Source of the DNA: Catenulispora acidiphila DSM 44928
GTDB taxonomy: Bacteria > Actinomycetota > Actinomycetes > Streptomycetales > Catenulisporaceae
Length of the DNA stretch: 64,000 nucleotides
Assembly: GCF_000024025.1 (NCBI RefSeq)
Contig: NC_013131.1
Location: 5,208,001-5,272,000, forward strand
Reading direction: 5' to 3'
Part shown: piece by piece, positions 40,737 to 47,780 of the stretch
Layout of the letters: every line of letters begins with the position of its first letter
How positions within the stretch are numbered: the stretch's first letter is position 1
Position numbers and translations under genes: made by a program
Notes under the pieces: model-generated
The model's database searches: none
The model's input: the letters and a program-made list of their open reading frames with translations, nothing else
Told to the model about the DNA's origin: nothing

Positions 40737-41918
40737 CTACTTGTACCGGGAGGAGTTGTCGTGCCACTCCAAGCACCCTCCCATCCATGCGCGTGCGCCG
40801 AGGACGAACCGCTGCAGCTCCGGCGAGGGCACGGCCGCGAGCGCAGCGCGGCTGTGCTCGAAGCCGCGCACCACGTCGTTGTGCAGGGCGACCACCTGCT
40901 CGGTGGCTTCGGCGATGGAGCAGTCGCGTTCGGCGGCTAGGAGGAGGACCAGGTTGCAGTCTGGGTCCTCGCCGGCTTCGCGGGCTGCTGATGCCAGGTC
41001 GTTTACGAGGACTGCTGCTGTGCCGGCTTGGGTCAGGGCGCGGTGGAACAGGGGTTCGGCGAACAGTTCTGGGGGGAGTTCGTAGCCGCCGACGACGTCG
41101 ATGAGGATCATGGAGGTGTAGAAGGAGTCGTGTTGGCGTGCTGCTAGGTAGCGCCAGGCCTGGGGGGTGATGCCGGCGTGGCGCCAGGCGTTGTAGGCGT
41201 TCCAGGACACGTACATCTGGTGTGTGGTGTGCCGTACGCGCATCACTTGTGCTGCTGAGGCGTGGCGGGTGACGTGTGCCAGTGCCGAGCGCAGGGATAC
41301 CAGTACCGGGTCGGAGACGACGGCGTCCTGTAGTGGCGGTGTGAACTCCCCGACCGGGGGTGGGGGGTCCAGTGCTGAGGAGACCAGTGCCAGGCGCTCC
41401 GGTAGTGCTTCGGCGACGGCGCCCAGGTCGGTTTCGTCGGCGTAGTAGTCATCGCTCGCCCACCAGGCGGCGTTCATCTGTGCGGAGACCAGCAGCAGGT
41501 CCGGGTCGTCGCATTCGGGGTGCGCCAGGGTGATCAGCCGGCCGAAGCCGGTCTTGGCGAACTCCTCCAGGTGCCCGGCGTGCAGCCCGATCCGCTCGGC
41601 CCAGGCCACCAGACGTGCGTTCACGTCGGCGGCCAGGGCCTCGTCGAGGCGGGACGGCGCCGGACAGTACAGCGGGGAATGCGACCCGTCGCCCCACGCG
41701 CGCAGCTCGATCGGTGCCGGCGCCAGCCGCTCAGGATGCTGCGGCGGACGCGCCGGGCTCTCCGGACCCGGATCGACATCGGAGCTGTGCCAGTGCTCCG
41801 AACGCGCCTCCGGTGCGGCAGCCTCCCACGGCGGCCGCGCCGGCGGCGGCCCGGTCAGCGCGGCCAAACCCGGCAGCACCGCCGCAGCGCTGCGCCCGGT
41901 GTCGGCGATCAGGGTCAT
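40737..41918 (-). CDS. 2-methylisoborneol synthase, terpene cyclase cargo
   Basis: A 393-residue class I terpene cyclase, last gene of the MIB operon. The metal-binding DDYYADE is at 156-162, the NSE motif NDLASAARE at 306-314, and the C-terminal RY pair at 391-392. HQMYVSWNAYNAWRHAGITPQAWRYLAARQHDSFYTSMILIDVVGGYELP is typical of MIB synthases, which cyclise 2-methyl-geranyl diphosphate to 2-methylisoborneol. Residues 1-80 are Pro/Ala/Ser-rich and disordered-looking, the segment that in family 2B systems directs packaging in the encapsulin. GGAGAG precedes ATG 41918. Confidence 0.93.
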   Translation of the reverse strand: MTLIADTGRSAAAVLPGLAALTGPPPARPPWEAAAPEARSEHWHSSDVDPGPESPARPPQHPERLAPAPIELRAWGDGSHSPLYCPAPSRLDEALAADVNARLVAWAERIGLHAGHLEEFAKTGFGRLITLAHPECDDPDLLLVSAQMNAAWWASDDYYADETDLGAVAEALPERLALVSSALDPPPPVGEFTPPLQDAVVSDPVLVSLRSALAHVTRHASAAQVMRVRHTTHQMYVSWNAYNAWRHAGITPQAWRYLAARQHDSFYTSMILIDVVGGYELPPELFAEPLFHRALTQAGTAAVLVNDLASAAREAGEDPDCNLVLLLAAERDCSIAEATEQVVALHNDVVRGFEHSRAALAAVPSPELQRFVLGARAWMGGCLEWHDNSSRYK

Positions 41919-41978: not shown

Positions 41979-42827
41979 TCAGACCTTGTCGGCGGCGATC
42001 ATCAGGTAGTGGAAGCTGCCCTCCTTGTACGCGGTCAGGAACGCCTCCTCGATCCCGGTCGTCACGTTCGACTGCTCCCGCAGCTCCCAGTACGGGATCG
42101 TCGCCGCCGTCAGGTCCACCACGCTGATCGGGACCAGGCCGTTTTCGACCATCGCCGCGAAGTACTCCGAGCGCGGATGGATGTCGCAGATGTAGTGCGC
42201 GTTGATCTGGCTCACCGACCGCGACGGCAGCGCCCCGTAGGCGTCGTTGAAGCAGCCGGTGATAGTGACGTACCGCCCGCCCGGCGCCAGGGAGCGCGCG
42301 TGCTCGGCGAACAGCGAGTGCAAGTCCACGTACATCGTCGACTCGTTGTTCCAGATCGCCTGGAACGTGCCGTCGGCGAAGCCGTTGTCCAGCATGTTGC
42401 GCAGGTGGTAGTTCACCTTCCCCGACAGGCCCATCTGCTCGGCGCGGTTGTTGGCGAAGTCGACCTGCTTGCCGGAGATCGACAGCCCGTCGACGCGGCA
42501 GCCGAACCGCAGCGAGGCCATCAGCGACGTGCCGCCGCGGCCGGACCCGGCGTCCAGCAGCCGCTGCTCGGCGGTGACCGGACCGAGCTGGTCCAGCAGG
42601 AACTCGGCCTGCGCCGTCTCCAACCGGTGCATCTCGGCGATGACGCGCGCCTCCCGGTCGTCGGCCGGCGCCTGCAGCACCGACCAGTCGACGTCGCCGA
42701 TGCCGTAGTGGTGGTGGTAGATACCGTCCACCTCGCCTAAGCGGATGTTCACCGGGTTTTTCTCCCGGTCCCAGTAGTCGGCGACAGACTCCTGGTAGCG
42801 GCTGGTGACAGCAGACTGCGAACCCAT
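41979..42827 (-). CDS. Geranyl diphosphate 2-C-methyltransferase
   Basis: A 282-residue SAM methyltransferase that turns geranyl diphosphate into 2-methyl-geranyl diphosphate, the substrate of MIB synthase. VADYWDREKNPVNIRLGEVDGIYHHHYGIGDVDW is the hallmark N-terminus of the family. LLDAGSGRGGTSLMASLRFGC is the SAM site. IWNNESTMYVDLHSLFAEHARSLAPGG and the aromatic C-terminus also agree. It starts at ATG 42827 (AAGGGTGG upstream) and lies 60 bases before the cyclase gene. Confidence 0.95.
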   Translation of the reverse strand: MGSQSAVTSRYQESVADYWDREKNPVNIRLGEVDGIYHHHYGIGDVDWSVLQAPADDREARVIAEMHRLETAQAEFLLDQLGPVTAEQRLLDAGSGRGGTSLMASLRFGCRVDGLSISGKQVDFANNRAEQMGLSGKVNYHLRNMLDNGFADGTFQAIWNNESTMYVDLHSLFAEHARSLAPGGRYVTITGCFNDAYGALPSRSVSQINAHYICDIHPRSEYFAAMVENGLVPISVVDLTAATIPYWELREQSNVTTGIEEAFLTAYKEGSFHYLMIAADKV

Positions 42828-42966: not shown

Positions 42967-44052
42967 TCAGGGCGCGGGGTGCTCGGCGACGGCGTGTTCG
43001 CAGACCGCGTGCCAGGTGCGGTGTCCGCCGAGCCACGTCCACAGGCCCGCCAGATATCGGCGAGTGGAAGGATCGGCCGAGCCGGCCAGCTGTGTGGCGT
43101 GATGCTGGAACGCCCGCATCGCCTCGTCGTGGACCTGCGCGGCACGCCGCCCCGCAGCGCCTGCGGTAAGACCCTCGGCGCGCGCGATCGCCGCAGTCAG
43201 ACCCGACGGTGCCGGCGAGGCGATGTCGTGCAGCAACGCCGCCGCCAACGCCGCCAGCCGCTGCGCGCGCCGCAGCTCCGGATCGCCTGAGGACGACGGC
43301 GACAACTCGTACCCGTCGACCGCGTCCAGCGCCGCCAACGCCGGGCTGTAGGCGTTGACGTGCCCCAGCGACAGGTACTCCCACGGCGGACGCGGACCGG
43401 AGACGGTAGCCGTAGGCGCCGCCGCAGACAACGCCTCGCATTCGGCCCGCACCCGCGCGACCTGATACGGCGAAGCCGGCAATCCGCCGAGCCCGGCCAT
43501 CGCCGACAGCAGCGCCGGGGCGGCGACACCGGCGAGACCGGCGCGCGCCGGATCGGCCAGGTCCAGGTGGGAAGGCAGGGCGTCATCGGGGACGTCGCAG
43601 CCGTCGTAGATCTGCGCGAGCGCCTCGCCGACAGCACCGGCCGGCGACGCAGCAGCAGCCGAAGCAGCAGCAGCGGGGGAGTCCTGCGGCGCCCCGGAGC
43701 GCTCCGGCGCGCGCCGCAGCAGATCCGCCTCCGAAGCTCCCATCGCCCCAGCGGCCAGCACCCGTCCGACCGCCAGCAGCCGCGCCGCCACCTCCAGGCG
43801 GCCCGCATCGTCGGTGTCCGGATGCGCCAGCACCGCCAGCCGTCCGAGTCCGGCAGCCGGGCCCGGTGCCAGCCCGACGCCGGCGGCCCAGGCGTCGAGG
43901 CGCTGCTGCACCGTCTCGGCCAGGCCTGGGTCGTCGCGTACTGCCGGCGGGCAGTACAGCGCCTCGGTCACGCGTGCCGGCCGTCCGGTCTGCGACAGCC
44001 GTGAGGCCGCCATGCCCAGTCCGGTGTGCGGCACCGCAGCGATCGTGCCCAT
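42967..44052 (-). CDS. Terpene-cyclase-like protein lacking metal-binding motifs
   Basis: A 361-residue protein whose frame follows MIB synthase: ALYCPPAVRDDPGLAETVQQRLDAWAAGVGL and GRLAVLAHPDTDDAGRLEVAARLLAVGRV align with LYCPAP ... LVAWAERIGL and GRLITLAHPECDDPDLLLVSAQM of its operon neighbour. Where the active enzyme has DDYYADE, this one has AAGAMGASE (about 100-108). The NSE triad becomes HDIASPAPS (275-283), and no RY pair ends the protein. Catalysis by the class I mechanism is therefore unlikely. An Ala-rich stretch lies at 126-138. Gene position directly after the shell gene suggests a structural, scaffold or accessory cargo role. Confidence 0.8.
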   Translation of the reverse strand: MGTIAAVPHTGLGMAASRLSQTGRPARVTEALYCPPAVRDDPGLAETVQQRLDAWAAGVGLAPGPAAGLGRLAVLAHPDTDDAGRLEVAARLLAVGRVLAAGAMGASEADLLRRAPERSGAPQDSPAAAASAAAASPAGAVGEALAQIYDGCDVPDDALPSHLDLADPARAGLAGVAAPALLSAMAGLGGLPASPYQVARVRAECEALSAAAPTATVSGPRPPWEYLSLGHVNAYSPALAALDAVDGYELSPSSSGDPELRRAQRLAALAAALLHDIASPAPSGLTAAIARAEGLTAGAAGRRAAQVHDEAMRAFQHHATQLAGSADPSTRRYLAGLWTWLGGHRTWHAVCEHAVAEHPAP

Positions 44053-44102: not shown

Positions 44103-45536
44103 TCAGCCGCGCGGTGCCGCGACGTCGACGTTCTCCAGGATCCCGATGGCGTCGGGCACCAGGACCGCGGTCGAGTAGTACGCGGTGACCAGGTATTTGA
44201 TGATCGCCTTGTCGGTGATCCCCATGAACCGGACGTTCAGGCCCGGTTCGTACTCATCCGGGATGCCGGTCTGCCGCAGCCCGACCACGCCCTGCTGTTC
44301 CCGGCCCAGGCGCATCGCCACGATGGAGGAGGTGTGGCCGTCGGCGACGCCGATCTTGCCGCAGGGGTAGATCGGGACGCCGCGCCACGCCGGGACCGCG
44401 TGTCCGTCGATGAGCACCGGGTCCGGGTACAGGCCGCGTTTGCTGCACTCGCGGCCGAACGCCGCGATCGCCTTGGGGTGTGCCAGGAACATGGTGGTAC
44501 TGCGGCGCATCGCCAACAGGTCGTCCATGTCATCCGGGGTCGGCGGCCCGGACCAGGTGCTGATCCGCTGGTCGTAGTCGGTGTTGTGCAGCAGCCCGAA
44601 CTCCCGGTTGTTCAGCAGCTCCCACTCCTGCCGCTCCCGGATCTCCTCGATCGTCAGCCGCAGCTGCTCTTTGACCTGGTCCATCGGGTCGTTGTAGAGG
44701 TCGGCGACGCGGGAGTGGACCCGCAGGATCGTCTGCGTCAACGACAGCTGATACTCGCGCGGGGACAGCTCGTAGTCCACGTAGGTGCCGGCGAGTTCGA
44801 CCTCTCCTTCGTGTCCGGAGGTGACGTCCACGACCGCTTCGCCTTTGGAGTTCACCGCACGGTCGGTGCGGGCCACGAAGGCGTCGATGTGCTCCCGCAG
44901 GTCGGCGTTGCCCTCGCGGATGCGGGCGAAGTCAGCCATCGGCATCGCCAGCAGCGTGCCGGCGGTGGTGGCCTTCACCGTGGCGCTCCACAGCGGATCG
45001 GCCTGCAGCAGCACCTCATCTCCCAGGTGCGCGCCGTCGGTGAGGACGCCCAGCAGCGTCGGCTCGCCATAGGCGCCGATGGTGCTGCGCTCCACCCGGC
45101 CGTGCGCCAGGATGAACACCTCGTCGACCGGATGCCCGGCCTCGGCGATGACCTCGCCGGGGGCGAAGTCCCGCGGCGTGAACAACCCGGCCAGCTCGGC
45201 CAGCACCGCGTCGTCGGCGAACCCGCGCATCACCGGGATCTCCCGCAGCGTCTCCGGCACGATCCGGATGTCGTCGGCGCCGCTTTGCACCACCGCCACC
45301 CGCCCCCGGCCCACCGCCAGGCTCAGCCGCCGGTTCACCCGGTACGTGCCGCCGGAGACCTCCTCCCACGGCAGGCGCCGCAGCAGCCAGCGGGAGGTGA
45401 TGCCGCGCATCTGCGGCTGCGTCTTGGTGGTGGTGGCCAGATTGCGGGCCGCATCAGTACTCAGGGACAGCGGCGAGTCCGTGGCGGCGGGATCCTCGGG
45501 CGCTTGCTCGGCGGTGCGGTCCGGAGTGATCGTCAT
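44103..45536 (-). CDS. Family 2B encapsulin shell protein with cyclic-nucleotide-binding domain
   Basis: A 477-residue family 2B encapsulin, first gene of the MIB operon. The N-terminal arm (1-60) is disordered-looking. A cyclic-nucleotide-binding-like domain spans about 100-220 ([41 protein letters not shown]). The HK97-type shell follows ([45 protein letters not shown] ... [21 protein letters not shown] ... [28 protein letters not shown] ... [12 protein letters not shown]). It should assemble a compartment around MIB synthase. AGGAGG precedes ATG 45536. Confidence 0.95.
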
Positions 45537-45781: not shown

Positions 45782-46312
45782 TCAGCCGCGGCGGTCGGCG
45801 CCGGCCGCGGGGTGGGTGTCGGTGGCGGCGAGTTCCTCGGCGCGCAGCAACATCTTCTTCAGCAGGGCGTTGACGCGGGCCCGCTCCCGCTCGTCCAGGG
45901 CGCCGACGATCTGCCGCTCCACCTCGTCCTGGAAGCGCATGCCCGCCAGCCACTTGGCGTGGCCGGCGTCGGTGAGCTCGACATCGACGCGGCGGCGGTC
46001 GGCGGTGCCGCGGATCCGGCGGACCAGCCCGGCCTGCTCCAGGGCGTCCAGGCGGCCGGTGACGCCGGCGGGGGAGAGCAGCAGCTCGGCGGCCAGCTCC
46101 CCGGGGGTGGCGCGGCGGTCGTCGCGGGCGGCGAGGCGGTGCAGCGTCTGGAACTCGAAGTCCTGCAGACCGATCTGCTCGACCATGCGGCGTTTGCCGT
46201 GCGCGACGTGCTTGGTGAGGTTCTGCATCCGGGTGATGACCGCCTCGACCGTCTCGTCGTACGGCGCTTTGCCGCGCCAGCGGGCCAGGTGACGGTCGAC
46301 AGAGTCCTCCAT
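45782..46312 (-). CDS. MarR-family regulator
   Basis: A 176-residue winged-helix regulator. FEFQTLHRLAARDDRRATPGELAAELLLSPAGVTGRLDALEQAGLVRRIRGTADRRRVDVELTDAGHAKW is the MarR DNA-binding domain with its wing (RGTADRRRVDVELT). Helices at both ends provide dimerisation. It is divergent from an MFS gene, and three palindromic boxes lie in the 100-base gap, so it most likely represses itself and the transporter. ATG 46312 is the natural start. Confidence 0.93.
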   Translation of the reverse strand: MEDSVDRHLARWRGKAPYDETVEAVITRMQNLTKHVAHGKRRMVEQIGLQDFEFQTLHRLAARDDRRATPGELAAELLLSPAGVTGRLDALEQAGLVRRIRGTADRRRVDVELTDAGHAKWLAGMRFQDEVERQIVGALDERERARVNALLKKMLLRAEELAATDTHPAAGADRRG

Positions 46313-46341
46313 GGGGTCAGTATGGAGCGGCACGGCGATGT

Positions 46342-46398
46342 TTCGCCAGCGAAGGTTCGAGCGAGAAGTATTTCGTTGACGAATGATTCGGTGGCGAA
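46342..46398. promoter_or_regulatory. Three TTCG-N4-CGAA boxes between marR and the MFS gene
   Basis: TTCGCCAGCGAA (46342-46353), TTCGTTGACGAA (46372-46383) and TTCGGTGGCGAA (46387-46398) share the palindrome TTCG-N4-CGAA. A larger inverted repeat AGTATTTCG/CGAAATACT (46367-46375, 46395-46403) encloses the last two. They occupy the whole divergent promoter region and are strong MarR operator candidates. Confidence 0.75.
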
Positions 46399-46412
46399 AT
46401 ACTGTGGCGGGT

Positions 46413-47780
46413 ATGACAGCCCCCTCCCCGGAGTCGGATGCAGTCGGCGCGCCGGGCGCGGTCGGTGTGCGCAGACTCATGCTCGGCCGCACCGCCGCCG
46501 CACTGGCCACCTCCCTGATCCCCACCACGCTGACCCTGGCCGTCGTGCACGCCGGCAGCGCCGCCGGAGCCCTCGGCGTGATCCTGGCCTGCGAATTCGT
46601 CCCCATGCTGCTGCTGTTGCCCGTGGCGGGGGTGTTCGCCGACCGGTTCCCGGCGCGCCGCGTCATCCTCGCCGCCGACCTCACCCGCGCCGCCGCCCAA
46701 GCCGGCATCGGCGCCACCCTGCTGGCCGGCGGCGTGAACGTCGCGGCGCTGTCGGCGCTGGCGGCACTGACCGGAGGCGCCGTCGCCTTCGGCACACCGG
46801 CAGTACGGACCCTGGTATCGGCCACGGTCTGCGGACCGCAGCGGCAGCGACTCAACGCACGGCTGTCGGTGTGGCAGCAACTGGCGCAGTTCGCCGGACC
46901 CGGCGTCGCCGGAAGCCTCATGCTCGGCATCGGAGCCGGCTGGTCATCGCTGCTGACCGCGGCGCTGTTCACCGGATCGGCACTGACCCTCGGCGGGCTG
47001 CCCACACCGGCACGCCACAGCGCCACGGTCACGGCCACGGCCACGGCCACAGCACTGGCCACCGACAATGCCGACGCCGACACCTACGCCGATGGCAACA
47101 ACGCCACCGACAGCCGCGACACCGTGCGGCGCGCGCCGTTCCTGCAGGAGCTGCGCGCCGGATGGACCGAAACCCGCCGCCACTCCTGGTTCATCGCCAA
47201 CGTCCTGGGCCACGGCATCTGGAACATGACCGCCGGCCTCCTGCTCACCCTCGGCCCGGTCATCGCCGTCAACCACCTCGGCGGCGGCACCGCCTGGGTC
47301 ATCACCCTGCAATCGGGCACCGCCGGCATGCTCGCCGGCGTCTGGACGGCAGGGCGCCTGCACCTCCAACGCCCCCTGATAGCCGTGGCCCTCGGCGCCT
47401 CCGCCTACGCGCTGCCGCTGGCGGCGCTCGCCGCCACCGCACCCCTGCCGCTGCTGCTGGCCGCCTACACCGCCGGCATGTTCGGCCTGGGCATCCTGGA
47501 TCCGCTGTGGGAGACCACCGTCCAGCAGCGCATTCCTCGGCATGCCCTGGGCCGCGTCGGCTCCTTCGACAGCCTCATCTCCTTCGCCGCCCGCCCCGCC
47601 GGACTGGCGCTCGCCGCCCCGATCGCCACAGCCGTCGGCACAGCGCTGCCGCTGGCGGTCGCGGCGGTACTGGTCGGGGGAGCGAACCTGGCAGTGCTGC
47701 TGCTGCCCGCAGTACGCGAACACCCCAAGGCTGCCCAGGCCGTACCGGCGCCACTGGTCAGCGCCGGAGCCGCAACGTGA
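46413..47780 (+). CDS. MFS transporter, MarR-linked
   Basis: A 455-residue MFS protein with about 12 helices. It starts at ATG 46413 with VRRLMLGRTAAALATSLIPTTLTLAVV, then ILACEFVPMLLLLPVAGVFADRFPARRVILAADLTRA (motif A), similar to DHA3-type exporters. The central cytoplasmic loop contains an in-frame Ala-Thr repeat (VTATATATALAT, about 209-220). Likely an exporter induced when the MarR ligand is present. Its stop overlaps an in-frame GTG that could start the O-methyltransferase gene. Confidence 0.9.
   Translation: MTAPSPESDAVGAPGAVGVRRLMLGRTAAALATSLIPTTLTLAVVHAGSAAGALGVILACEFVPMLLLLPVAGVFADRFPARRVILAADLTRAAAQAGIGATLLAGGVNVAALSALAALTGGAVAFGTPAVRTLVSATVCGPQRQRLNARLSVWQQLAQFAGPGVAGSLMLGIGAGWSSLLTAALFTGSALTLGGLPTPARHSATVTATATATALATDNADADTYADGNNATDSRDTVRRAPFLQELRAGWTETRRHSWFIANVLGHGIWNMTAGLLLTLGPVIAVNHLGGGTAWVITLQSGTAGMLAGVWTAGRLHLQRPLIAVALGASAYALPLAALAATAPLPLLLAAYTAGMFGLGILDPLWETTVQQRIPRHALGRVGSFDSLISFAARPAGLALAAPIATAVGTALPLAVAAVLVGGANLAVLLLPAVREHPKAAQAVPAPLVSAGAAT

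Follow-up and report, generated by a model that had tools for sequence, protein, structure and literature searches.

The 2-methylisoborneol (MIB) operon of Catenulispora acidiphila DSM 44928 raises the question of why a bacterium would keep, beside a gene for a family 2B encapsulin shell protein, a relative of MIB synthase that has lost its catalytic sites. The operon lies in a stretch of 64,000 nucleotides (positions 5,208,001 to 5,272,000 of contig NC_013131.1, hereafter the window) on the single replicon of 10,467,782 bases. On the minus strand, the shell gene is followed by the gene for this degenerate cyclase (here termed the dead cyclase), a methyltransferase gene, and the gene for a catalytic MIB synthase (Table 1). 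A preliminary description of the window had placed the dead cyclase gene between the shell and methyltransferase genes, where we also find it, with the shell gene upstream and 50 bp between the two. The description had offered four roles for the protein (scaffold, allosteric partner of MIB synthase, second cargo, or cap), guesses that it did not differentiate. The distribution of a loading-type motif between the two cyclases favors cargo or adaptor. In this study, we propose that the dead cyclase may be a cargo adaptor, or escort, for MIB synthase; this reading is favored because the putative tag is carried by the dead cyclase, while catalysis resides in a tagless partner. It is the best single explanation that we can offer, and we regard its chances of being right or wrong as evenly balanced.

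Catalytic losses and retention of the gene

The dead cyclase and the MIB synthase of the operon align over residues 32 to 348 with 29% identity (E = 3e-27), and the predicted structure, compared by use of VIA-align, has an intact alpha-helical class I cyclase fold. Against NF041167, the curated model for encapsulin cargo terpene cyclases, the dead cyclase scores 182.1 bits, under the cut-off of 400. In class I cyclases, a diphosphate-sensor arginine and a C-terminal RY pair have recognized roles. Sites were counted in 34 aligned orthologues out of 38 family members; three partial sequences and P0038, which is out of frame, were left out. The losses reported in the preliminary description, namely, those of the Asp-rich site (AAGAMGASE in the window), the NSE site (HDIASPAPS), and the RY pair, are real in all 34 orthologues, and in none of them is the R or the Y of the pair kept. 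At the NSE triad, the N is replaced by H, R, or Q and only the D of ND remains. Two further losses went unreported in that description: deletions have removed the S and the E of this triad in 34/34 sequences, and the sensor arginine (R261 of the partner) is replaced by G in 30 sequences and by A in the other 4.

Around the lost sensor arginine, the dead cyclases have acquired new invariant residues, H, N, A, and Y (LGHVNAYSP), which could be taken to mark a cyclase or another diphosphate-processing enzyme with a relocated, unrecognized active site. The preliminary description had itself named metal motifs at other positions as an observation that would count against it; inspection of the 34-row alignment by eye revealed no conserved DDxx(x)D/E-like or NSE-like motif elsewhere. 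Class I cyclases rely on both metal motifs, according to the available part of PMC10563020, and we consider a relocated active site to be highly improbable.

The dead cyclase gene is under purifying selection and is not plainly decaying. Pairwise NG86 ratios of nonsynonymous to synonymous substitution (dN/dS), in which dS is uncertain under the strong bias toward guanine and cytosine, ranged from 0.15 to 0.57 (21 pairs, seven sequences), the closest pair giving 0.15, and full-length open reading frames (ORFs) are present down to 50% identity. When eight chosen pairs were pooled, dN/dS was 0.26 for the dead cyclase, above the values of MIB synthase (0.13) and the shell protein (0.22); the dead cyclase is therefore constrained, yet it evolves faster than its operon mates. 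Both genes, for the dead cyclase and for MIB synthase, were found in 8 of the 10 Catenulispora genomes searched and neither in the other 2, one of which is just 77% complete; in one genome (G007), the dead cyclase is in pieces on two contig ends. The order shell, dead cyclase, methyltransferase, MIB synthase recurs in 9/9 Catenulispora rows that hold both shell and MIB synthase (six distinct places). Because the loss of catalytic residues is family-wide and purifying selection has continued, the dead cyclase is by sequence a conserved pseudoenzyme. The earlier phrase "retained, non-catalytic" is thus upheld by the lost residues, the dN/dS values, the intact fold, and the presence of the gene in 8/8 operon-bearing genomes of the genus, and the high dN/dS that had been named as a sign of decay was not observed.

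It can also be envisioned that the dead cyclase is a relic, an ancestral cargo cyclase that still occupies the usual cyclase position but has been supplanted by an incoming MIB synthase and is undergoing slow decay. Its faster evolution would fit such a fate, as would the fact that three copies in the databases, namely, P0038, P0160, and the C. yoronensis copy P0163, go out of frame partway, which may reflect either sequence errors or recent decay. However, the pooled dN/dS of 0.26, the value for the closest pair, the survival of full-length ORFs at 50% identity, the invariant N-terminal residues described below, and the retention of the gene wherever the operon was found in the genus make a relic very unlikely.

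The range of the family is narrow. In two database searches, it appeared, among the candidates scored, only in sequences named Catenulispora or in sequences without an organism name; the other matches, where the sequence was read, were cyclases with the Asp-rich motif. A search of 394 genomes of the class gave an NF041167-type match at E ≤ 1e-30 in 44, and among the matches listed (with up to four candidates scored per genome), no adjacent cyclase pair was seen outside the window's genome, although weaker pairs could escape this search, given that the E value of the dead cyclase itself is 3e-34. A dead-cyclase profile matched in 33/394 of these genomes, strongly in the window's genome only (561 bits; next match, 184 bits), and a search of PLSDB plasmids returned weak Streptomyces matches and nothing else. 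The preliminary description had held that absence from all other loci would speak against a function; this absence is partial, in that no non-Catenulispora locus examined has the gene, whereas all eight operon-bearing genomes of the genus do.

Separation of the loading-type motif from catalysis

Most 2-MIB synthase (2-MIBS)-like cargo cyclases carry the motif GPTGLGT in a disordered N-terminal domain, and such motifs have been proposed as possible targeting sequences, as described in the available part of PMC8346489 (Andreas and Giessen). The preliminary description overlooked a motif of this type at the extreme N terminus of the dead cyclase, at residues 8 to 19, which is absent from the catalytic MIB synthase. 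Its sequence in the window is PHTGLGMAASRL, and in more distant orthologues it comes close to the consensus (e.g., GPTGLGTTAAALAE); G11, G13, A16, and L19 are invariant in 34/34. The pattern P-x(1-4)-G-[LI]-G-[TSAM] matches 35/35 dead-cyclase orthologues that have an N terminus (three partial entries were skipped), compared to 0.8% of shuffled N termini. Residues 1 to 30 of the structural model have predicted local distance difference test (pLDDT) values of 47 to 61, fitting a flexible tail. With a GPTGLGT-type motif on a disordered extension at its terminus and a family 2B shell gene beside its own, the dead cyclase is probably itself an encapsulin cargo, judging from these sequence features.

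The active-site motifs of its catalytic partner are intact and strongly conserved. The pattern, by contrast, matches 0/12 Catenulispora MIB synthases (11 with complete N termini and P0050, which has a late start) versus 99/107 of their next relatives (P0051 to P0159, from the best 120 of 660 matches). P0080, whose N terminus shows PTGLGT, and P0153, which shows no motif, were skipped in this count. Among the eight relatives without a match, five have short N termini (P0060, P0083, P0129, P0134, and P0155), two have changed motifs (GPSGPGT and GPSGRWT in P0109 and P0113), and in P0095 the N terminus scored was too short, the longer stretch showing GPSGRGT. A missed upstream start that would hide the motif in MIB synthase was excluded by the upstream reading frames in the window, L046, and L047. 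In a 57-row cyclase tree, the catalytic partners are nested in an 18-row clade (100/100), and because each of the 13 remaining rows, which come from other actinobacteria, has the motif, its lack in the partners is best read as a loss.

In its place, the partners have a new conserved N-terminal block (ARPPW...HW[HQ]...DVDPGPE), found in 11/11 Catenulispora partners with a full N terminus and in 0/109 relatives. We postulate that the dead cyclase would bind MIB synthase at a cyclase-cyclase interface or, alternatively, would dock this block, and that its N-terminal motif would then anchor the pair of cyclases inside the shell. Targeting and catalysis, usually functions of one polypeptide, would then reside in two proteins, a pseudoenzyme and an enzyme, respectively. 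The dead cyclase may in addition tune the activity of its partner, as does the inactive rice geranylgeranyl diphosphate synthase (GGPPS) recruiting protein (GRP). The fuller version of this proposal, a split cargo in which the dead relative is an obligate adaptor with the loading signal and the live enzyme has lost that signal and gained a docking block, goes further, and we place it slightly short of an even chance.

Several observations weigh against an adaptor. The function of the GPTGLGT motif is proposed and unproven in the available part of PMC8346489. The dead cyclase has a higher rate of evolution than its neighbors, and the three database copies mentioned above are out of frame. The Catenulispora rows are not independent, since the separation of tag and catalysis is one event in one genus. 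Five loci (L111 to L115) have motif-bearing MIB synthases, and screening of ORFs within 15 kb of fetched sequence revealed no family 2B shell; their shell gene may lie elsewhere in the genome. The new block of the partner could itself be a loading signal. Finally, a shell-linked cyclase can lack the motif without an adaptor, because one clade of short cyclases is without it and no dead cyclase was found beside them.

This last point comes from the shell-linked cyclases outside the genus, in which the pattern, with V also allowed at the last position, was matched in 32/45, the match in L060 being doubtful. Seven of the 13 misses (L086, L122, and L124 to L128, with L086 and L122 being one place) belong to the short-cyclase clade, which comes from a different family within the order to which the window belongs, and no dead cyclase was found near them. 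The remaining misses are GPxGPGT-type variants (L004, L006, L074, and L117), L062, and L068. The short cyclases share LPGPP[ND][IL]A near the N terminus in place of GPTGLGT (PPGPPNLV in L123, which is the same as L088), possibly a different loading signal.

The short-cyclase clade and the block also bear on the possibility that the dead cyclase is an independent second cargo, noncatalytic and loaded separately, e.g., to fill the lumen, bind monoterpene or substrate, or serve as an element on the pore side, while MIB synthase loads via its own new N-terminal block. The occurrence of the block in every full-length partner and in no relative indicates that the N terminus was replaced and not merely lost, and the short cyclases lost the canonical motif with no adaptor at hand. 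We know of no cargo that uses the ARPPW...DVDPGPE block, however, and two independent cargos would give no reason why the loss of the motif coincides with the clade that holds a motif-bearing dead cyclase alongside. We therefore consider a second cargo unlikely, although it is the strongest competitor of the adaptor.

Less likely still is an allosteric or stabilizing subunit, in which a heterodimer would mainly raise the activity, specificity, or stability of MIB synthase, with loading being secondary. The intact cyclase fold is consistent with such a role. There is precedent in the inactive rice protein, which raises the efficiency of GGPPS as well as relocating it (PMC9399743, available part). 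Against an allosteric role, characterized MIB synthases, to our knowledge, need no protein partner, the active-site motifs of the partner here are intact and strongly conserved, and the retention of the tag would be left unexplained.

Origin of the two cyclases and the surrounding genes

The description of the dead cyclase as a paralogue must be qualified, in that the two cyclases lie on different branches of the MIB synthase family and do not resemble a pair duplicated in situ. The 57-row tree unites the dead cyclases in a single clade (100/100) whose stem measures 2.29 changes per site, a placement to be read with the long stem, four rows of unusual letter composition, and a long-branch warning from the tool in mind. 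Tandem duplication in situ is disfavored: a single clade of dead cyclases and partners costs 38 log-likelihood units, with a p value of 0.024 in an approximately unbiased (AU) test of the sister relation that was carried out post hoc, with the tree already known. A wider clade of the dead cyclases and the whole group of the partners was not rejected (p-AU, 0.37).

The Catenulispora rows form one clade in the shell tree and one in the methyltransferase tree (41 rows), in both without resolution of their nearest relatives. A single clade of this methyltransferase with those of partner-type loci was rejected (p-AU, 2.8e-41); because it does not group with them, there is no sign that the methyltransferase arrived with the catalytic cyclase. 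The dead cyclase, directly after the shell gene, occupies the slot of the sole cyclase in 41 of 45 non-Catenulispora shell-and-cyclase loci, two rows of which are the same place. In the remaining four, the cyclase and methyltransferase are ahead of the shell (L120 and L121) or the methyltransferase lies between shell and cyclase (L119 and L129). Such an arrangement could have arisen if a second MIB synthase came in and the resident cargo cyclase then lost catalysis.

The MIB synthase of the window is taken to be Caci4612, the name given to the C. acidiphila DSM 44928 enzyme in PMC3072421, in the available text of which mtf precedes mic and the dead cyclase gene is not mentioned. The same text reports two flanking cnb (shell) genes in nearly all strains; one shell gene is near the operon in the window, and the genome has two further family 2B shells, at 1.64 and 6.83 Mb. 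These two, L057 (G000:C1:1636000-1652000) and L058 (G000:C1:6823000-6840000), are mutual sisters in the shell tree, and no ORF with a convincing GPTGLGT-type motif was found in the stretches fetched around them. Upstream of the shell gene in the window (positions 45782 to 47780), translations read by eye include a MarR-like regulator on the same strand and, past it, a divergent major facilitator superfamily (MFS)-type transporter.

Table 1. Features of the MIB operon, with positions in the window
Feature	Position	Strand	Remarks
Family 2B encapsulin shell protein with cNMP (cyclic nucleotide)-binding domain	44103-45536	-	NF041163, 717 bits (cut-off, 400)
Degenerate MIB synthase-like cyclase, 361 aa	42967..44052 (ATG 44052, stop 42967)	-	Catalytically dead by sequence; proposed cargo adaptor
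GPTGLGT-type motif, residues 8-19 (PHTGLGMAASRL)	43996..44031	-	Proposed family 2B cargo-loading tag
Lost DDxxxD metal site, residues 100-108 (AAGAMGASE)	43729..43755	-	None of three Asp kept, 34/34
Lost sensor arginine, residues 227-243 (LSLGHVNAYSPALAALD)	43324..43374	-	R to G/A; new invariant H, N, A, Y
Lost NSE triad, residues 275-283 (HDIASPAPS)	43204..43230	-	H, R, or Q in place of N; S and E deleted
Geranyl diphosphate 2-C-methyltransferase	41979..42827	-	NF041943, 495.5 bits (cut-off, 400)
Catalytic MIB synthase	40737..41918	-	Metal motifs intact, no GPTGLGT motif; NF041167, 425 bits
New conserved N-terminal block of MIB synthase, residues 26-53	41760..41843	-	ARPPW...HWH...DVDPGPE

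Comparison with known systems

If the adaptor proposal is true, the retention of the dead cyclase would be explained, and MIB synthase would be, as far as the literature searched shows, the first encapsulin cargo loaded via a pseudoenzyme escort. An encapsulin loading signal need not then sit on the enzyme, since a dead relative can serve as a dedicated escort. The operon would also be a natural test of GPTGLGT as a loading tag, with tag and catalysis on separate proteins, and would suggest a modular route for loading untagged enzymes into family 2B shells. The literature searched, which did not cover preprints, describes neither this gene nor an encapsulin adaptor that is a pseudoenzyme; one preprint, reference 35 of PMC12407261, reportedly concerns an encapsulated 2-MIB synthase.

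By analogy, the closest functional precedent would be the inactive rice GRP, which is a homologue of GGPPS. GRP heterodimerizes with GGPPS, relocates it, and raises its efficiency, as reported in the available part of PMC9399743. In rice, as is proposed here for the dead cyclase, an active isoprenoid enzyme is brought to its place in the cell by a relative that is itself inactive; unlike the dead cyclase, GRP is a prenyltransferase relative at a plant plastid membrane for which binding has been reported, whereas here the proteins are cyclases, the destination is a protein shell, and binding is inferred. Likewise, in the piggyback loading of microcompartments, adaptors such as CcmN are noncatalytic proteins that bring in an untagged enzyme by means of an encapsulation peptide. 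The shell and cargo folds of those systems are unrelated to the ones considered here, where the adaptor and the cargo enzyme would belong to one family, of which the adaptor is a dead representative.

Within encapsulins, the dead cyclase resembles the 2-MIBS-like family 2B cargo cyclases (NF041167; PMC8346489, available part) in its fold, its adjacency to a shell gene, and its GPTGLGT-type N-terminal motif; it differs from them in lacking catalytic residues, in its score of 182 bits, short of the cut-off of 400, and in being accompanied by a second, motif-less catalytic cyclase. The available part of PMC12407261 describes two-component family 2B shells, another variation within the family that is thought to widen cargo loading; there, however, it is the shell that is doubled, whereas here it would be the cargo that is split.
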